A program made the position numbers and the translations under genes. Below are positions 11,795 through 26,552 of a stretch of DNA of 64,000 nucleotides, piece by piece (positions within the stretch are counted from its first letter, which is position 1; every line of letters begins with the position of its first letter). The stretch comes from Caldicellulosiruptor danielii (lineage in GTDB: Bacteria; Bacillota; Thermoanaerobacteria; Caldicellulosiruptorales; Caldicellulosiruptoraceae): NCBI RefSeq assembly GCF_034343125.1, contig NZ_CP139957.1, positions 1,387,001 to 1,451,000 on the forward strand, given 5' to 3'. Below the pieces are notes generated by a model that saw nothing but the letters and a program-made list of their open reading frames with translations, did not search any database and was not told where the DNA came from.

Positions 11795-12742
11795 TTATTG
11801 TAAATAAAGTTGTTTGTAAAAATCTACTAAACTCATCTTTTGTTCTTCTATGTCTCGAACTTTTATACCCTCATTCTGTAATAAATTTAAAATATCTTCA
11901 TGAGAACTGATATTATGAATTTTTATTGAGTTATTAAACTGAGTTTCTACAGATACATGCGGTAATTTTTCCTTTATTAACCTACACGTTATATCAACAT
12001 GCTCCTTTTCAGTAAAATGAAAAATCACTACTGTATTTCTTTTTAACAATTCTTCCTTATTTTTGTCTAATATTATTGAACCATTTTTTATAAAAATAAT
12101 TCTTGAACATAATTCCTCTATATCACTCAATATATGTGATGAGATTAAAACGGTTATGTTATTTTCTCTCCACCGTGTTTTTAAGAGCTCTTTAACTTTA
12201 ATTGTGGTGGTTGGGTCCAATCCATTAAAAGGTTCATCCAATATCAACACTTCAGGGTTGCCAATAAACATTTGAAGCAAACCAACCTTTTGCTTTGTTC
12301 CCAATGAATATGTTTTCGCCTTTCTTTTTAATATCTTATTTTCTAATTCAAAAAATGGTGCTAACCTATTAACCTCATCTTTAACGTTAAAGGTACTCCC
12401 ATATTTTAGTTTAGAATACAATTCTATATTATCATAACCACTAAGTTTAAGATACAGTGCTGGTGTTTCAATAAAAAATGACGCTCTTCTTAAAACCTCT
12501 ATTCTTTCTTGTTCCTTAGTTACATCACATCCCAAAATATAACATTTCCCTTTTGGTTTTGGTAACCATAAACCTGCCAGTATTTTCATTAATGTGCTTT
12601 TGCCAGCACCATTTGGTCCTACAAGACCAACAATTTCTCCTTTCCCTATCGAAAAATTTATATTCTTTAAAATTTGAAATTTCCTAATCTTCTTATCTAC
12701 ATCAATCAATTCTATTACTTTTTCTGCTTGATTTTTATTCAA
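11795..12742 (-). CDS. ABC-2 type transporter, ATP-binding protein
   Basis: 315 residues: Walker A GPNGAGKST, the Q-loop region, a signature degenerate as YSLGTKQKVGL, Walker B VLILDEPFNGLDP and the H-loop ISSHIL. The C-terminal extension of about 90 residues is typical of drug- or peptide-exporting DRA-type ATPases (BcrA/CcmA-like). TTG start behind AAGGAGG. The gene lies 51 bases after its permease. Together they would form an exporter or an antimicrobial-peptide resistance pump. The substrate is unknown. Confidence 0.88.
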   Translation of the reverse strand: MNKNQAEKVIELIDVDKKIRKFQILKNINFSIGKGEIVGLVGPNGAGKSTLMKILAGLWLPKPKGKCYILGCDVTKEQERIEVLRRASFFIETPALYLKLSGYDNIELYSKLKYGSTFNVKDEVNRLAPFFELENKILKRKAKTYSLGTKQKVGLLQMFIGNPEVLILDEPFNGLDPTTTIKVKELLKTRWRENNITVLISSHILSDIEELCSRIIFIKNGSIILDKNKEELLKRNTVVIFHFTEKEHVDITCRLIKEKLPHVSVETQFNNSIKIHNISSHEDILNLLQNEGIKVRDIEEQKMSLVDFYKQLYLQ

Positions 12743-12793
12743 ACCAATTTACCTCCTTCAGTCAACTCCCAGGCTTTATTTTTTATTTATTTT

Positions 12794-13966
12794 TTATGAT
12801 AACTTTTCTCTATTTTCGAATATCTTTATTGCAGCCAGTACAAAAATAGCTGTCAACAATAAATTTAAAACTACTACAACATAAAATGAAGCATAAATCC
12901 ACTGTATGTGCTGTTGTAGTGAATTAGTATATACTTCCTCTAACTCCCAAGGAAATATTAAAGATAACAACTTCAATAAAGGTTTCTTAACAACAAGTAA
13001 CCTCTGACGGAAAATACTAATAGCTACTATTATGGCAAAAAAGCTAATACTTGCAAATGTTCCGTTTTCAAATATGGTTGAGAAAAATATAACAGCTCCC
13101 ACTATAGCCACTATAAGAATAATTTCGGTTATTAACTGTAGTAAACAACTTTCAAGCAAATTTAATAATTTTACATTATCCAATACAGGATATATTTCAA
13201 AACCTATCATCTTGTATTTGGAAATCCAATCATAATAGACGTCAAAGTATTTAAAAGTGCCTGCTTTAAGATTTAAAACTATGAAAAATATTAATTGCAT
13301 ACCAATAATCAATGCAAATACAGTCAATACAGTAGCAATATATTTGCTTAAAATAATATTGCTTCTTTTAACAGGCAAAGTTCTTAAAATCTTGACTGTC
13401 CCTTCTTTATATTCATCTGAAACAATATTACTTCCAATAAGTAAAGCTAAAATAATTATCATTAAAAATGCAATCGCATATGATTGACTAAGTAAATAAT
13501 ACCATCCGTCAAACTTTCGACCGTAAATGTAATATTTGCCTTTACTTATATTTTTACTTAAAATTTGATAATTTATCTTGTTAATTTCAAGTTCTCTAAA
13601 GTCACCTGTTTTCTTAGAATTTTCATACATTATTCTGTAATATTGAGCTCTTTCTTCTACTTCCTTTTTCGGATTGGAAATATACTGTATTTTTATTTTT
13701 TCTTCTTGAACAATCCTATTCAGAGAATTGATTTGTTCCTGATATATTTTCTTAACTTTCTCGTCTTTTTCTTTTTCTAATTTCTTCTGTAATTCCTTTA
13801 TACTTTTTTCTGTATCTGCTATATATTTCTTTGTAAACTCAACACTTTGATTACTCATATTATATAACAACAAGCAATATAGAAGATTTAGAACAATTGT
13901 AACTATTAATGCAATTAAAAATTTCTTGCTTTTAAAAATTTTTTGAATTTCAGCATACAGTAACAA
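12794..13966 (-). CDS. ABC-2 type transporter permease
   Basis: 390 residues. One membrane helix near the N terminus (17-35) is followed by a long coiled-coil loop rich in K and E (about 40-105), which should lie outside the membrane, then five further helices (about 160-385). This is the NatB/ABC-2 permease layout. The TTG start is behind AAAGGAGG. It is transcribed ahead of the ATPase gene as one unit. Confidence 0.85.
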   Translation of the reverse strand: MLLYAEIQKIFKSKKFLIALIVTIVLNLLYCLLLYNMSNQSVEFTKKYIADTEKSIKELQKKLEKEKDEKVKKIYQEQINSLNRIVQEEKIKIQYISNPKKEVEERAQYYRIMYENSKKTGDFRELEINKINYQILSKNISKGKYYIYGRKFDGWYYLLSQSYAIAFLMIIILALLIGSNIVSDEYKEGTVKILRTLPVKRSNIILSKYIATVLTVFALIIGMQLIFFIVLNLKAGTFKYFDVYYDWISKYKMIGFEIYPVLDNVKLLNLLESCLLQLITEIILIVAIVGAVIFFSTIFENGTFASISFFAIIVAISIFRQRLLVVKKPLLKLLSLIFPWELEEVYTNSLQQHIQWIYASFYVVVVLNLLLTAIFVLAAIKIFENREKLS

Positions 13967-17050: not shown

Positions 17051-17073
17051 GGCACAATTTTATTTTAACTCCC
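17051..17073 (-). repeat. IS256-like terminal inverted repeat, copy 1
   Basis: On the minus strand GGGAGTTAAAATAAAATTGTG, matching the copy at 18546-18566 and facing it. The next bases (GCCTACTATATAAT...TTAGGC) form a small hairpin. The repeat supplies the last codons and stop of the truncated IS110 gene. Confidence 0.65.
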
Positions 17074-18043
17074 CTAATTTCTGAATTTGTTTCGCATCCT
17101 CATACTTTTTTATATCCCCAACTTCAGAAATAAAACCTACTGCTGTTTTCACCCCCACTCCCTTGATATTAAGTAATTCCTCACCATTTGGCACTTCCTT
17201 CAATAATTCTGCCATCTCAGCTTCTATCTCCTCTATTTGTTTCCTCAAAAGCTCATATTCCTCAATTAAATATCTCATCTCTTGTCTTGCCAGCTTTCTA
17301 CCTTCTCTTTTACCTATACTCCTCTTCGCTACTTCTACTAATTCGGTTGCTTTTCTTCTACTCATAGCTCTTTTATCTACTTTTCCTTCCCATGTGGCTA
17401 AAATCCCTTCCAATCCTTTTTCTACCACCTCACAAGGCAATGGCATCTCTTTTAGTGTCAACAGTGCAACTTTGCCTTCCCAATCACAAAATACTTCTAA
17501 AAACTCTGGAAAATAAATATCCAGCCAGTTGATTATTTGATTCTTTAAAACGTTTATTCGTTTTTGAAGCCTTTCATATATATTCATTGCTACTCTCATC
17601 TCAGCATATATGCCCTCAGGTATATTTGGCTCTGTGTATCTACCATCTTTCACAAGCATCGCTATCGTTTTTGGGTCCTTTATGTCACTCTTACTTTGGG
17701 TATTATCATCAAGCTCTTTACTCCTCTTCACGTGAAAAGGATTCACTAAAACTACTTTTATGCCTCTTTCTCTCAAATACTGTTCAAAACACAACCAGTA
17801 ATGCCCTGTAGGTTCTATTCCTACTATTACATCATTCTTGCCATTGGCTTTCATTATCTTATCTGCTCAATCCAAAAATTTCTCTATACCTTCGTTATTG
17901 TTTTCAAACTCTATTCTCTTGCCAAGCTCCACTCCTCTAAAGTCAAATGCTCTACCAACATGTCTTTCCTTTGCTATATCTACTCCTACAACCAAAGTCC
18001 TTTCTGTGACTTGTAATATCTTCTCATTTTGTGTATACTTCAA
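17060..18043 (-). pseudogene. IS110-family transposase, nonsense-mutated and 3'-truncated
   Basis: The N-terminal RuvC-like (DEDD) domain begins TLVVGVDIAKERHVG (first aspartate), and continues VGIEPTGHYW (glutamate) and VKRSKELDDNTQSKSDIKD. A single in-frame TGA at about 17864 splits the protein. The C-terminal Transposase_20 domain starts LLNIKGVGVKTAVGFISEVG but ends abruptly at IQKL, where the sequence becomes the IS256-like terminal repeat and stops at GELK. About 60-70 C-terminal residues, including the catalytic serine, are missing. TTG 18043 behind AAGGAGG is the natural start. Confidence 0.85.
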
Positions 18044-18046
18044 GGT

Positions 18047-18116
18047 AGGTACCTCCTTTATTGTGTTTTGTCGTAAGTTGTACAACTTACTTTATTAATT
18101 TTATCAGGAGGTACCT
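18047..18116 (-). repeat. Inverted repeat around the IS110 start region
   Basis: AGGTACCTCCT at 18047-18057 pairs with AGGAGGTACCT at 18106-18116. On the minus strand the inner arm contains the AAGGAGG of the transposase. A perfect 18-base palindrome, GTAAGTTGTACAACTTAC (18073-18090), lies between the arms. Confidence 0.65.
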
Positions 18117-18370
18117 TATCTTTTCAAATCTCATTTCAGCTCATTTTTCCTCATTTTCGTTCATTACAGGAATGCTTTTATACAGCGTTTATTTTTTATG
18201 ATCTGATAAAAAAGTGTTTTTCGCCAATTCATTGGTGATTTATAAAAAACTGCCCTAAAAACTACTATTTTTCATCATTCGCGTCTTGGAATTTGAAGTT
18301 AAAAAGTTACATATCTAATTTTTGAACAGTGTATATAATCACTAATTTTATAATTTTAATTTACATTATA

Positions 18371-18545
18371 TTACTTAATAGTTAAAAACAACAATGTACC
18401 AATCTGACCAATAATGTTAGCACTTATATGCATGATTATAGGCACAAATATTGAATTCAAACGTAGATAAAAAATTGATAAGATAATTCCAAACAAAAAC
18501 GCACATAAAGCGGTATATAAATTTATATGCCACAAACCGAAAATT
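18371..18545 (-). pseudogene. C-terminal fragment of a CPBP (CAAX/Abi) membrane protease gene
   Basis: The minus-strand frame reads IFGLWHINLYTALCAF (motif 2 with its histidine) through VPIIMHISANIIGQ (motif 3 HxxxN) to TAA at 18371. These are the second and third conserved motifs of CPBP-family intramembrane proteases. The 5' part is cut exactly where the IS256-like repeat begins at 18546 and was not found on the other side. CPBP proteins often serve as bacteriocin maturation or self-immunity proteins. Confidence 0.75.
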
Positions 18546-18568
18546 GGGAGTTAAAATAAAATTGTGTC
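18546..18568 (+). repeat. IS256-like terminal inverted repeat, copy 2
   Basis: GGGAGTTAAAATAAAATTGTG followed by GTCCACTGTATAAT and, 20 bases later, AGTGGAC. It marks the left end of the IS256-like relic. The matching right end was not found next to the stop at 19850. Confidence 0.65.
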
Positions 18569-18615
18569 CACTGTATAATTAGAATTGAAATAATCATCAA
18601 AGTGGACTATTTAAA

Positions 18616-19850
18616 ATGAATAAAAACGAAATTATTGAGACTGCTAAAAACATGGCCCAAGAAGCAAGTATTAAATATGTATTGCTTCCTGTGATGGCTT
18701 TATCCGCCCAGCTCTAAAGCAACTACAAGTAAAACTTGCTCGATTGTTTTATGTTATCTGAAAGAAAAGTCTTCCTTGCTAAAAATGACAATGACAAAGG
18801 CCATGGTTTTTATTGAAGTAAAACTTGCAACACCTGCCTTGTGTCTTGAAATCTCTGTCCCTCGTACACGCCCTTAGAATTTCCGACCTTCTATCCTCTT
18901 CTTTCCGCTACAAAAGAGTTGATAGTTCAACTACTTCCCTTCTGATGTCACAAGTATATCAATGGTTATTCTTGAGCGTTCCCTTGTCCAGCCTTTGAAA
19001 GCTTTGAATCTTCCATATTCCGAAAATGAAATACTAAAAATCAAAGAAGATCTCAAAAATGAGCTTAAGTTTCTTAAAACAAAGAGAACTACCAACAAGT
19101 GCGTTTGCTTCTTTTCATCGACGGTTATTCAGAAGTGAAGTTAAGGATAATTCTTAAGATAAAACTTGCTACTTGGAATGCCAGCCTCGGTATCCACTTA
19201 GAAGGCAAAAAAGACGTTTTCGGTGTTCTGCACTTTCTTCGGCAAAGAAAATAAGGCTGATTGGATGAAAGTTTTTGAAGACTTAATTACAAGAAGTCTT
19301 AAAGAAATTTTAATTGTTATAAGTGACGACTTCCCTGGTATTATAGATGCTGTCAAACTTGCTTACCCTCTTGCTGACCTTGAGCTTGCTTTTGTCCACC
19401 TCCAACGTAATGTTAGAAAACATATGACAAAAGAGGATGCTTCAGCTTTTAACAAGAGTTTAGACAGGCTTAGAATTTCTTCCTCTGATTTTGACAAAGC
19501 TGCAGCAAAATTTAAAGAACTTTGCGATGGATACCTCTCAAAATATCCTCGATTTTATTGCTGCAATATCAGAAAAAGCAGAATTTTATCTTGCCCATAT
19601 GAAATACCCTGAAGAATTAAGAAAGCATATATATACCACAAACGCCGTTGAAAGTGTAAATAGTATGATTGAAAAGATTAGAGTAAATTCAGGTGGATAC
19701 TTTCAGTCCGTTGAAGTCTTAGAAATTAATATTTACTTATAGCGAGAGAACTTACGCCGTACAAAATGGAAAAATGGAGTTCCAACTATTAGAAAATACA
19801 TAAATAATACAACCCAACTTTACAACTTGCGTTATAAATTGGAAACATAA
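18616..19850 (+). pseudogene. IS256-family (Mutator-type) transposase relic
   Basis: ATG 18616 opens MNKNEIIETAKNMAQEAS, then the frame breaks several times. Recognisable blocks: FIDGYSEVKLRI with the first aspartate region (about 19115), LEGKKDVFGV, WMKVFEDLITRSLKEILIVISDDFPGI with the second aspartate (19260-19345), and IYTTNAVESVNSMIEKIR near the catalytic glutamate (19625-19680). It ends TTQLYNLRYKLET at TAA 19850. No translated product can be full length. Confidence 0.82.
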
Positions 19851-20796: not shown

Positions 20797-21237
20797 TTAG
20801 CTTATCTTTACTGGCCTAAAATACTTGTATAAAAAGCCTCTACTTGCATCAATTCTTATTTCTTCCCCATTAATTTCAATAATTATTTTACCACACAGCC
20901 AATTTGTAAGTTTATTCGGTGTTGTCGCAATAATTTTGTTAGCATCTTTTTCAATTTTAGTGTAATACCCTGTTCTTTTTATTCGTTCTTCTAATTCATC
21001 CTCTGATATAGTACCTTTTTTGTAAACATACACCTCATGATCACATAAGTAACCAAAAATAATTGACATTGTCAAAGCCCACAAAAATATCATCAAAGCA
21101 AATACTAATATAATTTCTGACTTTACATACAAATCATTTAATTTTGCAATTATCAATATAACCAAACCAGCTCCTGCTGAAGCACCAAAACAGTATACAA
21201 AACATTTTAAAATTGACTTAAACAAAATTTTAATCAC
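20797..21237 (-). CDS. Two-helix membrane protein in the bacteriocin locus, candidate immunity protein
   Basis: 146 residues. Two membrane helices (about 18-35 and 42-66) are followed by a cytoplasmic domain of about 75 residues rich in beta-like segments (VYVYKKG, KIIATTPNKLT, GKIIIEINGEEIRID). It starts 19 bases after the second precursor gene and is on the same strand, so it is almost certainly co-transcribed. Bacteriocin operons usually place the immunity gene here; the sequence itself matches no family I know. Confidence 0.6.
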   Translation of the reverse strand: MIKILFKSILKCFVYCFGASAGAGLVILIIAKLNDLYVKSEIILVFALMIFLWALTMSIIFGYLCDHEVYVYKKGTISEDELEERIKRTGYYTKIEKDANKIIATTPNKLTNWLCGKIIIEINGEEIRIDASRGFLYKYFRPVKIS

Positions 21238-21255
21238 CTACCTGTTTTTCAATAA

Positions 21256-21489
21256 TTAAAATGGGAGAAAACTACCTACCGCTCCACCAAACATTGCTGA
21301 TGCCCACGCTGTTTTAAACATTTCTTTAATTTCTCCTGTATTATATGCAATTACAGCACCTGCAGCTATTCCATAAGTAAAACCCAAAATTGCTCCTGCC
21401 GCAGCACCAAACATTCCATCACCATTTATTTCTACTAATTCATCGTCATTTAAAACTATATACTCTTCTAGAACTGATCTAATAACCAA
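21256..21489 (-). CDS. Bacteriocin-like precursor peptide B
   Basis: 77 residues. The leader-like part (VLNDDELVEINGDG) has the acidic and hydrophobic pattern of double-glycine leaders, but the expected GG is DG. The following 52 residues are small and hydrophobic with GxxxG-type runs (FGAAAGAILGFTYGIAAG and FGGAVGSF), like class II bacteriocin cores. TTG start at 21489, with GGTGGAG close upstream, lies inside the end of gene A, so translation is probably coupled. A partner for peptide A in a two-peptide bacteriocin is the most likely role. Confidence 0.65.
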   Translation of the reverse strand: MVIRSVLEEYIVLNDDELVEINGDGMFGAAAGAILGFTYGIAAGAVIAYNTGEIKEMFKTAWASAMFGGAVGSFLPF

Positions 21490-21707
21490 TATACTCCACC
21501 CCCAATAAGTGCACCAACAAATGAACCAATGGGACCTGCTGCTGAGCCAAACGCAGCACCTGCAATTGCCGCACCTAATACACCCCCTCCAACTCCACTA
21601 ATATAAAAACCCAAATCGTTCCATCCTAATTTACCACCTTGAATATCTAATAATTCTATTTCACCTAATTCTACAGCCAATTTACTTTCCATCATATAAT
21701 CATTCAT
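21468..21707 (-). CDS. Double-glycine leader bacteriocin precursor peptide A
   Basis: 79 residues. A 25-residue leader (KLAVELGEIELLDIQGG) ends in the classic GG cleavage site of C39 peptidases. The 54-residue core begins KLGWNDLGFYISG and is very rich in G and A with repeated GxxxG helix-packing motifs (GAAIAGAAFGSAAG, GALIGGG), as in class IIb/Blp-type peptides. No cysteine is present, so no disulfide or lanthionine bridges. ATG 21707 follows AGAGGAGG. Directly downstream of the exporter genes. Confidence 0.82.
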   Translation of the reverse strand: MNDYMMESKLAVELGEIELLDIQGGKLGWNDLGFYISGVGGGVLGAAIAGAAFGSAAGPIGSFVGALIGGGVYWLLDQF

Positions 21708-21746
21708 AGATTATCAAACCTCCTCTTTATGTATTTTTTATTTATC

Positions 21747-21777
21747 CAACCCCCTCAGCCGGCTGATAGAAGGGTTG
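21747..21777 (-). other. Hairpin between hlyD-like gene and bacteriocin genes
   Basis: Outer arms CAACCC/GGGTTG (21747-21752, 21772-21777) enclose a perfect palindrome TCAGCCGGCTGA (21755-21766). It is followed on the minus strand by an A-rich, not T-rich, sequence, so processing or message stabilisation is more likely than termination. Confidence 0.5.
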
Positions 21778-21787
21778 TCGCCTCACC

Positions 21788-23188
21788 TCATAACCTCAAT
21801 CCCAACTTCTCTAATACCCACTCAATTAACCGCTCTTGCTTCACCACTATGCTCATCACACACGCCTGCCCTGCACTTAGCTTAATGCCTTTGGGAACTT
21901 TCTTTACCTCTACCTCAACCTCATAAAATCCTTGCCCGCTTTGAGTTGCTATCTTTATATCCCTCGATACCCTTGCAACCTTTCCTTCCAATACTTTTAA
22001 CCCATCTGCTCCTGCTATCTTTACTTTTGCCTTCTTGCCTATTTCTACACTACTACCTTTTGTATTTGGTATGTACCCAATAACCTTAAATCCTCTTGCT
22101 TGACTGCCAACTATTTTGCCAATCTCTTCTCCGCTGTTTACCACCGATCCTCTGACCAATTCGTTACTAAATTCCACATAACCATCTTTTTCTGCTCTTA
22201 CTATACAGTTTTCTATCAACTTTTCAGTTTCATCCAAGTTGATTTTCAGGTTCTTTATTTCATTACTTAAATTACTAATTTCATTATCAATTTGCATCAA
22301 CATGTCAAGCTTATATTTCTCAATATCTCCTTTTATATCATAACCTGAAATATTTAGCACATCAAGCTGCCCTTCTATTTTCTGTTTTTGCAAAATCAAC
22401 TCACTTTTTGTCTGCCTCAGCTCATCAAGCTTTGAATCTATTTTCGATATTAAAATCTTACTCTGTATATTACTACCATCCGATTTTGTCTTCACCTGCT
22501 GATTGTAAGCCTCTATCTCACTCAATATAAATCCTAAATACTCTATGTTGTATTTTTCTATCTCAACTTGCTGACCATTGCTGATAACTCCCTTTATCTT
22601 TTTCAACGCACTTTCGAAATTATTAATACTTTTAATTTTTTCATCTAAACTTTCTATTTGGCTTTTAAACTCTTTTAAACTGTATTCTCTTTGAACTTTT
22701 GCTTCTTCTGCTGCTTTTCTTAATTTGTTTACCTCATAAATATAGCTCAGATATCTCAAATAGTATGCATTATCTTTGTTTCTGAGACTTTCTCCTTTTT
22801 CTATACAATTTCTCAATTCTTTTAAATCATTAATCTTTTTCTCATATTCGCTAAGTTGCTGTTTCAAAAAATTCTTCTTTTTTACATACTCCCAATCATC
22901 AATCTTAAATAAAATCTCACCTTTCTTTACATATTCACTTTCTTTTACGAAAACCTCTTTTACCTTCCCTCCAACATAACTTATCACCTTTGCTTCATCT
23001 TCCCAGGGTCTTATTATCCCTTGAACCTTCACATTTATATCAATCTTTCCTACCACACTCCACAAAACAAGTCCTATTACTAAGGCAAGCAAAATATATG
23101 TAATAAAAAGTCCATACCTTGGAATCTCTGATTCATACAAAAGCTTGCTTTCTCTAAGCTCACCAAAATCATATATTACCTCTCTCAT
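21788..23188 (-). CDS. HlyD-family bacteriocin secretion accessory protein
   Basis: 466 residues. One membrane helix at about residues 27-50 is followed by a biotinyl-lipoyl-like half (VQGIIRPWEDEAKVISYVGG, with VFVKESEYVKKGEILFKID), a long coiled coil (about 110-330) and the second lipoyl half ending KAKVKIAGADGLKVLEGKV with a beta-barrel. This is the membrane-fusion partner of a peptidase-containing ABC exporter. ATG 23188 overlaps the exporter stop as ATGA; the open frame further upstream is inside the exporter gene. Confidence 0.9.
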   Translation of the reverse strand: MREVIYDFGELRESKLLYESEIPRYGLFITYILLALVIGLVLWSVVGKIDINVKVQGIIRPWEDEAKVISYVGGKVKEVFVKESEYVKKGEILFKIDDWEYVKKKNFLKQQLSEYEKKINDLKELRNCIEKGESLRNKDNAYYLRYLSYIYEVNKLRKAAEEAKVQREYSLKEFKSQIESLDEKIKSINNFESALKKIKGVISNGQQVEIEKYNIEYLGFILSEIEAYNQQVKTKSDGSNIQSKILISKIDSKLDELRQTKSELILQKQKIEGQLDVLNISGYDIKGDIEKYKLDMLMQIDNEISNLSNEIKNLKINLDETEKLIENCIVRAEKDGYVEFSNELVRGSVVNSGEEIGKIVGSQARGFKVIGYIPNTKGSSVEIGKKAKVKIAGADGLKVLEGKVARVSRDIKIATQSGQGFYEVEVEVKKVPKGIKLSAGQACVMSIVVKQERLIEWVLEKLGLRL

Positions 23189-25389
23189 GCCCTCAGTACA
23201 CTCCCAACAGAATCCAAAAGTCCCTTCTGCTCCAATCCTATCAGCTGCTCTCTCCACAGGTTATAATAATATCCTTTCTTTCTCATCAGCTCCTCATGCG
23301 TTCCTACCTCTACTATCCTGCCTTCATGCATTACCACAACTCTGTCGCATTTCAAAATAGTGGATAGCCTGTGCGCTATTATTATAGTGGTTATCCCCTC
23401 ACATACCTTCTCTATAACCTTTCCTATCGCCTGCTCGGTTACAGAGTCAAGGTTACTGGTCGCTTCGTCCATTATTATTATTTCAGGCTTCTTTAAAAGC
23501 GCCCTCGTTATTGCTATCAGTTGTTTCTGCCCACCTGACAAATTTGCTCCATTCTCTTCTATCATAGTATTGTATCTCAAAGGAAGTTTTGCTACAAATT
23601 CGTCCAGTGTTGTTAATTTGCTCACTTCAATTACTTCTTCCATTTTTAAATCTCTGTTTCCAAGCACCAGATTCTCAAATATCGTGCTACTAAACAAAAA
23701 GATGTCTTGGGATATATATGCTATCTTCTCCCTCAAATGTTTCTTGTTTATATCTTTTAAGTTATAGCCATTTATTCTTATCTCTCCGCTTTCATAATCA
23801 TAAAATCCTAAAAGCAATTTTGCTAACGTGGTCTTACCTGAACCACTCTCACCTACTATCGCTATCTTCTCTCCTCTTCTTATCTTAAGATTTATATCCC
23901 TGAGCACAAGCTGTCTTGTACCGTATCTGAAGTTCAAACCCTCTATCTCTATATCACCCTTCAAACTGGGTGATAATTTCCTATCTTCATTCTCTTGAAA
24001 TTCACCCTCAAGTTCAAAAATCTCACTAAGCCTTTCGGCTGCAACTATTGCTGTTTGCAACATCGGCTGCAATCCTATCAGGTTTTTTATCGGGTCTACA
24101 AAGTATGCAAGCAGTGCATTGAACGTAAACAACTCTCCTATGCTCATCTGCCCATTTATTACCTTGTCTGCTCCTACCCATAGTATTACCATAACTCCTA
24201 CCGCTGCTATCGCGCTGCTTATATTACTCTGCAAATTGTTTAAATTCGCCACCTTGAAAACATCTTTTAATAGCTTCACAAACTTACTCTCTGTCTTAAA
24301 ATTCACATCTTCTTCTATATTAAATGCCTTTACTACCTCTATTCCATTTAGTGACTCTACCAAATATGACGTCAAAATTGCATTGTCTTCCATCTCCTGC
24401 CTGTTCGCTTCCTTCAATACCCTGTTAAATCCAAACACTACTGCTGCATACAGCAAAACCATCATAAGGGCTATAAAAAACAGCGTGGAATTTTGCAGGT
24501 ATAATATAATTGCACCTACCACTGCCATTATGCTGTCTATCATTAGCGTCAGCGTCGCACCTGATACTGCATCCCTTATCTTTGACGCGTCCATAAACCT
24601 CGAAATTATCTCTCCTATCTTCCTACTACCAAAAAAACTCATCGGAAGCTCTATCACGTGTTCATAATATCCCAGCATCAGTTTAATATCCAATCTCTGA
24701 CTTAAATGTATCAAAAGCCTTACCCTGAATGCTCCTAATATCACCTTGAATATTGTAATCAGTATCGCACCTGCTGCTATAACGTGAAGTGTATTCCTCA
24801 AAAGATTCGGTATTACATCATCCATCAAAAACTTGTAATAAAATGCTGCCGCTATCCCAAGCAAGGTATATACAACTGACACTGCAAAAATATTCAATAT
24901 CAAGCCCTTCTGTGGACTTAATAACTTAAAAAACTTTTTCAAAACTCCCTCTTGTTTCCCTTTCTTGAACCTCTCATTTGGTACAAGAAATATCAAAATG
25001 CCTGTCCATATTTTAAAAAACTCCTCCGGCTTTAGCTTAACTATTCCTTTTGCCGGGTCAGCTATTACTATCCTTTCTTTCCTTATCTCGTGTATTACAA
25101 CATAATGAAATAGCTTGCCATCTATCAGTACATGTGCTATACACGGAAGAGGTATTTTTTCAAATATTGCTTCTTTTGCTTCTGCCCTGACTGCTTTTGC
25201 TTCAAATCCAAGCTTTTCAGCCGCTTTTACAACTCCATATGCTGTTGTGCCAAACCTATCTGTCCCTGCTATCTGCCTTATTCTGGCTATCGATACTTCT
25301 TTTCCATATTGCAAGCAAATTGTTGCTAAACACGCTGCTGCACAATCGGTTATATCATGCTGCTTTACACAATAGTATCTTTTCCTCAT
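23185..25389 (-). CDS. Peptidase-containing ABC exporter (C39 bacteriocin-processing transporter)
   Basis: 734 residues in three parts. Residues 1-140 are a C39 cysteine protease: Q10, catalytic C16 in TDCAAAC, histidine in LFHYVVIHEI and aspartate in IADPAKG. Residues 160-460 hold six membrane helices. The C-terminal ATPase has Walker A GESGSGKTT, signature LSGGQKQ, Walker B IIIMDEAT and the H-loop IIAHRLST. It would cleave the leader of precursor A after GG and export the core. First gene of the operon, with two candidate promoters upstream. Its third codon positions are richer in C than those of most genes around it, which suggests acquisition. Confidence 0.93.
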   Translation of the reverse strand: MRKRYYCVKQHDITDCAAACLATICLQYGKEVSIARIRQIAGTDRFGTTAYGVVKAAEKLGFEAKAVRAEAKEAIFEKIPLPCIAHVLIDGKLFHYVVIHEIRKERIVIADPAKGIVKLKPEEFFKIWTGILIFLVPNERFKKGKQEGVLKKFFKLLSPQKGLILNIFAVSVVYTLLGIAAAFYYKFLMDDVIPNLLRNTLHVIAAGAILITIFKVILGAFRVRLLIHLSQRLDIKLMLGYYEHVIELPMSFFGSRKIGEIISRFMDASKIRDAVSGATLTLMIDSIMAVVGAIILYLQNSTLFFIALMMVLLYAAVVFGFNRVLKEANRQEMEDNAILTSYLVESLNGIEVVKAFNIEEDVNFKTESKFVKLLKDVFKVANLNNLQSNISSAIAAVGVMVILWVGADKVINGQMSIGELFTFNALLAYFVDPIKNLIGLQPMLQTAIVAAERLSEIFELEGEFQENEDRKLSPSLKGDIEIEGLNFRYGTRQLVLRDINLKIRRGEKIAIVGESGSGKTTLAKLLLGFYDYESGEIRINGYNLKDINKKHLREKIAYISQDIFLFSSTIFENLVLGNRDLKMEEVIEVSKLTTLDEFVAKLPLRYNTMIEENGANLSGGQKQLIAITRALLKKPEIIIMDEATSNLDSVTEQAIGKVIEKVCEGITTIIIAHRLSTILKCDRVVVMHEGRIVEVGTHEELMRKKGYYYNLWREQLIGLEQKGLLDSVGSVLRA

Positions 25390-25499: not shown

Positions 25500-25529
25500 A
25501 TTTTATCTTATACATTTTCACTCTGTCAA
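25500..25529 (-). promoter_or_regulatory. Distal promoter candidate of the bacteriocin operon
   Basis: Minus strand TTGACA (25524-25529), 18-base spacer, TAAAAT (25500-25505). Confidence 0.5.
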
Positions 25530-25824: not shown

Positions 25825-26265
25825 TCACAATGCGTTTAAAGATAAAAATGGATTTATTACTTTTATTTTCTCAAAGTACTGACCAGAACTTAAGTCTTCA
25901 CTCCATATTATCGAACATTCTAAATTTATAGCGCTGCAGAGTATCAAAGCATCCCAAAAAGATATTTTGTATCTTTGTGAAAGCTTGATAGCATCTAAAA
26001 TATCTTTTAATTCAATTGTGGCTACTTTCCATAAACCTAAGTCTGATATGATTTGAAAAGCGCTGTCAAAACTTAAAGGATTTTTTACCTTTTTTGTAAC
26101 AACAACAAAAAATTCTTGAAGAACTTGAGTGCTCAAGGCCCCATTTCTTTCTTTCCAAAGTTTCTCCACAATCTGTTTAGCAACTTTGTGTTTTTCCCCT
26201 GCAGATTTATCATAAGCATAGACCAAAATATTTGTGTCAACAAATTGATAGTTACTTTCTTTCAT
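25825..26265 (-). CDS. PIN-domain toxin, VapC-like
   Basis: 146 residues. PIN-domain acidic residues are in place: VDTNILVYAYD near the N terminus, a central glutamate in QVLQEFFVV, and SFWDALIL followed by WSEDLSSG at the C-terminal end. VapC toxins are Mg2+-dependent RNases. The start ATG 26265 overlaps the antitoxin gene by 14 bases; the open frame upstream is not needed. The small fragment at 10576-10647 is a relic of a close relative. Confidence 0.88.
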   Translation of the reverse strand: MKESNYQFVDTNILVYAYDKSAGEKHKVAKQIVEKLWKERNGALSTQVLQEFFVVVTKKVKNPLSFDSAFQIISDLGLWKVATIELKDILDAIKLSQRYKISFWDALILCSAINLECSIIWSEDLSSGQYFEKIKVINPFLSLNAL

Positions 26266-26500
26266 ATAAATCTTCTCTCCTCCAAGTGATTGCTCCACCT
26301 GTTCCAAGGTCAAATCCTTCTTCTAAAAGCTTAAGATGCTGTAGATAAACCTTTTGATATGACTCTTCCCTATTTACAAGCTCTTCTAACAAGCTTGTAA
26401 GCAGCGCAGAAATGGATGTATTCCTTTCAACAGCAATATGCTTTACCTTTTGAATAAGTTCCTTGGGAAGAGATAAAGTAATGTTCTGATATTCACGCAT
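26252..26500 (-). CDS. Ribbon-helix-helix antitoxin, VapB-like
   Basis: 82 residues. The N-terminal ribbon YQNITLSLPKELIQKVKHIA and the following VERNTSISALLTSLLEELV form a CopG/MetJ-type DNA-binding fold. The C-terminal tail (GFDLGTGGAITWRREDLYERK without its middle) should wrap the toxin. ATG 26500 is preferred over the upstream frame. A palindromic operator covers its promoter, as expected for self-repression. Confidence 0.83.
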   Translation of the reverse strand: MREYQNITLSLPKELIQKVKHIAVERNTSISALLTSLLEELVNREESYQKVYLQHLKLLEEGFDLGTGGAITWRREDLYERK

Positions 26501-26514
26501 ATTATTCACCCTCC

Positions 26515-26552
26515 ACGTGAAATAGTGTATCACATATTTACGTGAGATTCAA
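26515..26552 (-). promoter_or_regulatory. vapBC promoter and palindromic operator
   Basis: Minus strand TTGAAT (26547-26552), 17-base spacer, TACACT (26524-26529). An inverted repeat, ACGTGAAATA (26515-26524) and TATTTACGT (26535-26543), overlaps the -10 element and most of the spacer. Confidence 0.6.

Follow-up and report, generated by a model that had tools for sequence, protein, structure and literature searches.

A putative two-peptide, class IIb-like bacteriocin operon with a Gly-Asp leader end in Caldicellulosiruptor danielii

Two-peptide bacteriocin systems of class IIb, such as lactococcin G, thermophilin 13 and lactobin A/cerein 7B, comprise adjacent small precursors with PCAT-type leaders and Gly-rich cores devoid of Cys, a C39 exporter with an accessory protein and a small membrane protein downstream. 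All of these features are shared by an operon at positions 20797-25389 of the DNA analysed here, a stretch of 64,000 nucleotides from C. danielii (the window), which we consider, with a probability of roughly 80%, to be an operon for an unmodified two-peptide bacteriocin of class IIb-like type. It differs from the described class IIb systems in that its precursors A and B score under the profile cut-offs, the leader of B ends in GD, the cores are non-cationic, no regulatory genes were seen near the operon and its membrane protein C is unlike any Pfam family. The Cdz system of Caulobacter (PMC5380434) likewise combines two small glycine-zipper proteins, an ABC exporter with an HlyD-type adaptor and one immunity protein, for which a candidate is present here; however, the proteins of Cdz, a contact-dependent system, have RTX-like leaders, whereas PCAT leaders precede the cores of A and B. 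In the lah cluster of Lachnospiraceae (PMC6363468) one PCAT serves several diverse cores behind a conserved leader, as is also the case in a genome of another family of the same class (G015) and in related loci, but the lah products are modified lanthipeptides, whereas the surroundings of A and B showed no modification enzyme. As a kind, two-peptide bacteriocins are well known; A and B are new in sequence. For the genus, a mining survey of modified peptides lists lanthipeptides, sactipeptides and circular bacteriocins (PMC4289311), and in our search of the open-access literature, in which lanthipeptides, sactipeptides and circular peptides are described for Caldicellulosiruptor, no class IIb pair came to light. 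The operon would add an unmodified two-peptide bacteriocin to this genus, with which the genes present and a GC content of about 35% agree; G015 would fit the Thermoanaerobacter side.

According to the open reading frame list and direct reading of the sequence, all five genes lie on the minus strand. The gene for the C39-peptidase ABC exporter (PCAT, 734 aa; 23185..25389) is followed by that for the HlyD-type adaptor (21788..23188), the TGA of the former and the ATG of the latter, which starts at 23188, sharing the ATGA at 23185-23188. Precursor A (79 aa; 21468..21707) and precursor B (77 aa, TTG start; 21256..21489) follow, their frames overlapping by 22 bases (21468..21489), and protein C (20797..21225) comes last. 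The earlier note, made from the same letters, had described the exporter and adaptor on one strand with an ATGA overlap, the 22-base overlap of the precursors and a co-directional membrane protein, and the coordinates agree with it, except that the listed GTG start of the membrane protein (20797-21237) has been revised: the start shared with relatives is the TTG at 21225, which is probably the true one, since the GTG position meets stops in these relatives. When the window was scanned in six frames for the leader motif together with a ribosome-binding site, A and B were the only matches. A programmed -1 frameshift fusing A to B was considered and rejected, as reading the overlap by eye revealed no slippery heptamer. 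A possible promoter for the whole operon, TTGACA-18-TAAAAT, is located at 25500..25529 on the minus strand and matches the consensus at 11 of 12 positions; the number of promoter-like sites in the region was not above that in shuffled sequence. Between the adaptor gene and A, at 21740-21780 of the window, the palindrome TCAGCCGGCTGA lies in a CAACCC...GGGTTG stem, and its core is also found upstream of A in G015. The 12-base pattern of this GC-rich palindrome (21756-21765) has one exact copy in the genome, and its folding was not better than that of shuffles.

The exporter matched TIGR01193 over its full length (708.7 bits, cut-off 523.85, positions 1-706 of 708), with the Pfam domains Peptidase_C39, ABC_membrane and ABC_tran in this order. 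The closest solved structure was that of PCAT1 (4ry2, 801 bits), and ComA was matched with 561 bits. With both of these transporters the match is full-length and spans the C39, membrane and ATPase parts, but the known sites are GG, GA and GS, whereas one of the two cargos here, B, has GD. The adaptor exceeded the cut-off of HlyD_3 (47.4 bits, cut-off 22.2) and matched TIGR01843 and TIGR01000 under their cut-offs, which places it in the adaptor superfamily, below the level of a subfamily assignment. The operon contains in this way the C39 ABC exporter and accessory protein that are typical of class IIb.

The leader of precursor A, MNDYMMESKLAVELGEIELLDIQGG, carries L(-12), E(-8), L(-7) and I(-4) and ends in GG, as the earlier note had recognised, and is followed by a core of 54 aa (KLGWNDLGF...YWLLDQF). 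The leader of precursor B, ending in ELVEINGD, has L(-12), E(-8), L(-7) and I(-4) as well and Asp at -1, and precedes a core of 53 aa (GMFGAAAG...GSFLPF). The positions -12, -8, -7 and -4 are those published for recognition by PCATs (PMC6363468, PMC10885120), and both leaders carry the residues concerned. Neither core contains Cys, in line with the earlier description; their masses were calculated as 5216.9 (A) and 5311.1 (B). GxxxG motifs had been noted in both cores and are present in both; they are enriched in B, with five occurrences as compared to 1.6 in shuffled sequences of the same composition (p 0.006), but not in A, in which six occurrences as compared to 3.7 (p 0.11) do not exceed composition and only the looser small-xxx-small pattern does so (p 0.0005). 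In the alignments, all four orthologues share GxxxG at four places in A and at five in B. Both cores are strongly hydrophobic, with GRAVY values of 0.94 and 0.89, almost uncharged and of glycine-zipper spacing, in which they resemble CdzC and CdzD (PMC5380434). This might suggest a contact system of the Cdz kind, in which A and B, once exported, would remain attached to the producer cell as surface aggregates of glycine zippers and act through contact killing. Given that the leaders of CdzC/D resemble those of RTX proteins while A and B carry PCAT-type ones, and that GxxxG is, according to the authors of the Cdz study, common to ordinary class IIb peptides (PMC5380434), we regard such a system as improbable and a class IIb-like pair as the better description.

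Counting against this reading are the scores of A and B below the cut-offs of PF10439 and TIGR03949, the Asp at the cleavage site of B and the neutral to acidic cores. By profile neither precursor is a member of these families: Bacteriocin_IIc (PF10439, cut-off 27.1) gave 9.6 bits for A and 12.3 bits for B, and the lactobin A/cerein 7B model (TIGR03949, cut-off 21.5) gave 7.2 bits for A and did not match B. The net charges of the cores are -1 and 0, whereas class IIb peptides are typically, but not strictly, cationic. Membership of the cores in a family other than bacteriocins, which the earlier note had named as grounds for giving up its reading, was not found either, the best other match being that of B to Gly-zipper YMGG (19.1 bits), under the cut-off of 28.9. 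A and B do not appear to be paralogues, the profile comparison giving a probability of 2.7%. No match was found for A or C in the viral, plasmid and phage collections where these were searched, and the profile of the A core returned a single match among wider genome contigs, in Rheinheimera, which was dismissed as a chance one because its frame contains stops.

The locus is conserved within the genus. A, B and C occur together, intact or as remains, in 5 of 13 genomes of the family (the window genome, G003, G009, G002 and G006), and three species, those of the window genome, G003 and G009, retain the complete block of exporter, HlyD, A, B and C in intact form, so the concern that the pair might not be kept beside C39 exporters in relatives proved unfounded. 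Orthologues of A were identified in G003, G009 and G002, and of B in G003 and G009, with broken copies in G006 and G002. In G002 the exporter is shortened, the end of A altered and B frameshifted, and in G006 the exporter is absent from the locus and both A and B are broken; C is intact in the two genomes. The 22-base overlap is exact in the window, in G003 (7642-7663 of L037) and in G009 (7261-7282 of L038). Comparison of the three intact loci gave dN/dS values from 0.32 to 0.63 in A, from 0.29 to 0.55 in B and from 0.14 to 0.19 in C, i.e., below 1 for all three genes, which are under purifying selection. The joint inheritance of adjacent precursors, a class IIb trait, is seen in the window genome, G003, G009 and G015, and in decayed form in G002 and G006.

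In G015, A, B and C are arranged in the same order as in the window. Its C is 32% identical to that of the window (E 9e-25 when the two sequences are compared), its exporter is encoded on the same strand at a distance of about 20 kb from A-B-C, and its A core is 64% identical to that of the window over the readable part, the frame being broken just past the cut by an error or by decay. This core is preceded by a different leader, MEAVMPMNGFMELTEDNLMLIDGG, of a type used there for several other precursors; leader and core have thus been swapped, each as a unit, at the site of predicted cleavage. B of G015 has its own ATG and does not overlap with A; equal dosage through overlap is therefore not a general feature. 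If the overlap, which is confined to the genus, has such an effect, it would supply A and B in equal amounts.

Near-identical exporters (92-96%) were found in 8 of the 13 family genomes, with up to five copies or fragments each, and adjoin quite different leader peptides. Among these, other peptides reached 24.7, 24.1 and 22.5 bits with TIGR03949 and one reached 38.5 bits with Bacteriocin_IIc, in each case above the cut-off given above, which supports the family reading of this type of locus despite the fact that A and B themselves score below. G007 has a peptide whose relationship to A is weak (E 0.007; hhalign P 1.3e-4, probability 54%) and which scores above the cut-off of Bacteriocin_IIc. 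Behind A-like peptides of this kind, G007 and G029 encode a membrane protein of about 390 residues instead of B and C; a similar pair exists in G025. Taken together, the near-identical exporters with different cassettes and the other leader of A in another family make the genus a natural set for the study of bacteriocin cassette exchange, and cassette and leader swapping behind one exporter is, next to the Asp at P1 of B, what makes the locus of interest. Loci L041, L043, L045, L046, L047, L049 and L051 combine near-identical C39 exporters with other leader peptides, several of them paired, e.g., MVNE...NGG↓...DFGRGF with MNKF...INGG↓...GYGVGY or DYGYSVGY (arrows, predicted cut), and some cassettes of this set reach the lactobin/cerein models or come near those of lactococcin G-beta. 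In a related family, L091, L092, L093, L096 and L098 hold long arrays of double-glycine precursors with varied cores behind a shared leader, MEAV.PMN.FMELTE..L...DGG, and most of these genomes have a single C39 exporter above the threshold used. At the corresponding chromosomal site L050 (G008:1344000-1358000) the exporter is truncated to about 256 residues; next come genes with a SPASM/radical-SAM-like protein and an ABC transporter, then an HlyD and another GG peptide.

The predicted cleavage site of B, ...ELVEINGD↓G, lacks a double glycine, and Gly-Asp↓Gly is conserved in every intact congener. Published exporters of the PCAT type cleave behind GG, GA or GS and recognise hydrophobic side chains at -12, -7 and -4, to which ComA adds Glu at -8 (PMC10885120, PMC6363468). 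Across the surveyed loci Gly occupied P1 in 33 of 39 distinct matches to the leader motif and Asp occurred in B alone; three matches with Tyr fall inside protein C, and the B of G009, also with Asp, was missed by the pattern owing to Phe at -12. At the place of INGD↓G in the window, the leader of the G015 orthologue reads INGG↓G, and this aligned Gly indicates that the leader register of B is right. Comparison of the C39 domains beside B with sister copies revealed no fixed or B-specific residue difference, and a special C39 domain for the GD site was rejected, the first 150 aligned residues being identical in two exporter copies of G009. It is conceivable, though less likely than not, that an ordinary C39 exporter either accepts the GD site or leaves it uncut, in such a way that the two peptides are matured differently; B might, for example, be cut at another place, keep its leader on export or be released slowly. 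The absence of a canonical site from B in every intact congener, together with the A-like peptides that occur without B in G007, G029 and G025, could also mean that A and B are two independent one-peptide bacteriocins, or that A alone is active and B is decaying or accessory, uncut owing to its Asp. This seems rather unlikely, as B is under purifying selection and presumably still used, its GD recurs in three species, and it is co-inherited with A, also in G015. For the two-peptide operon that we favour, the GD site offers an unusual site for testing exporter specificity.

Protein C begins with two membrane helices, continues into a soluble C-terminal part and matched no Pfam family; a single-sequence structure model, of low confidence (pLDDT 57) and too poor for a fold search, placed helices at 2-28 and 35-60. 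Immunity proteins of class IIb are diverse membrane proteins (PMC6957408), and C, being membrane-like and co-inherited with the A/B pair, would fit as their candidate immunity protein. Among the matches listed from 398 phylum genomes (G015 is not one of the genomes listed), full-length C was confined to the five genomes that carry A and B, whole or decayed, the other matches being fragments or weak. A search of wider genome contigs with the profile of C found nothing, and a PADLOC Orf5 match was discarded as weak (15.4 bits, covering a small part of the 566-residue model). The retention of C where A and B have decayed is weak evidence for immunity, since the decay is of recent date: G002 and G003 have identical copies of C, and C of G006 differs from that of G003 by about 14 changes. 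We accordingly do not treat the survival of C as strong evidence. Short broken C-like remnants without A or B occur at G001:1930641-1930801, G008:274663-274731 and G011:735474-735677.

As exporters of the PCAT kind also carry pheromones, e.g., ComA (PMC10885120), A and B might in principle be secreted signalling peptides instead of toxins. A dedicated membrane protein is, however, co-inherited with them, and neither a histidine kinase nor a response regulator was seen among the flanking open reading frames that were read. Moreover, at 53-54 residues these glycine-zipper cores are longer than would be expected of ComC-type pheromones, and we hold a signalling role to be highly improbable. A bacteriocin operon of the class IIb type, as proposed in the earlier note, is supported by the exporter, the PCAT-type leaders and the co-inherited peptides with their candidate immunity protein. 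We propose that the C39 domain of the exporter would bind the helical leaders of pre-A and pre-B and cut after GG (A) or GD (B), and that its ABC part would, together with HlyD, export the cores. Once outside, the two hydrophobic, glycine-rich peptides might act jointly on the membrane of related bacteria, while C would sit in the membrane of the producer and protect it. That the peptides are heat-stable is a guess from the type of organism.

Further observations concern the surroundings of the operon. Downstream, at 17060-19742 of the window, the open reading frame list contains broken transposase frames on both strands. An ABC ATPase and an ABC-2-like permease are encoded at 11795-13966, with no GG precursor nearby in the leader-motif scan of the window, and relatives of this pair adjoin peptide loci in L037, L049 and L051. 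Directly upstream of the exporter, at 25825-26533, lie genes for a PIN-domain protein and a ribbon-helix-helix-like partner, which have the look of a VapBC-type toxin-antitoxin pair and are also present at the corresponding site in G003 and G006.
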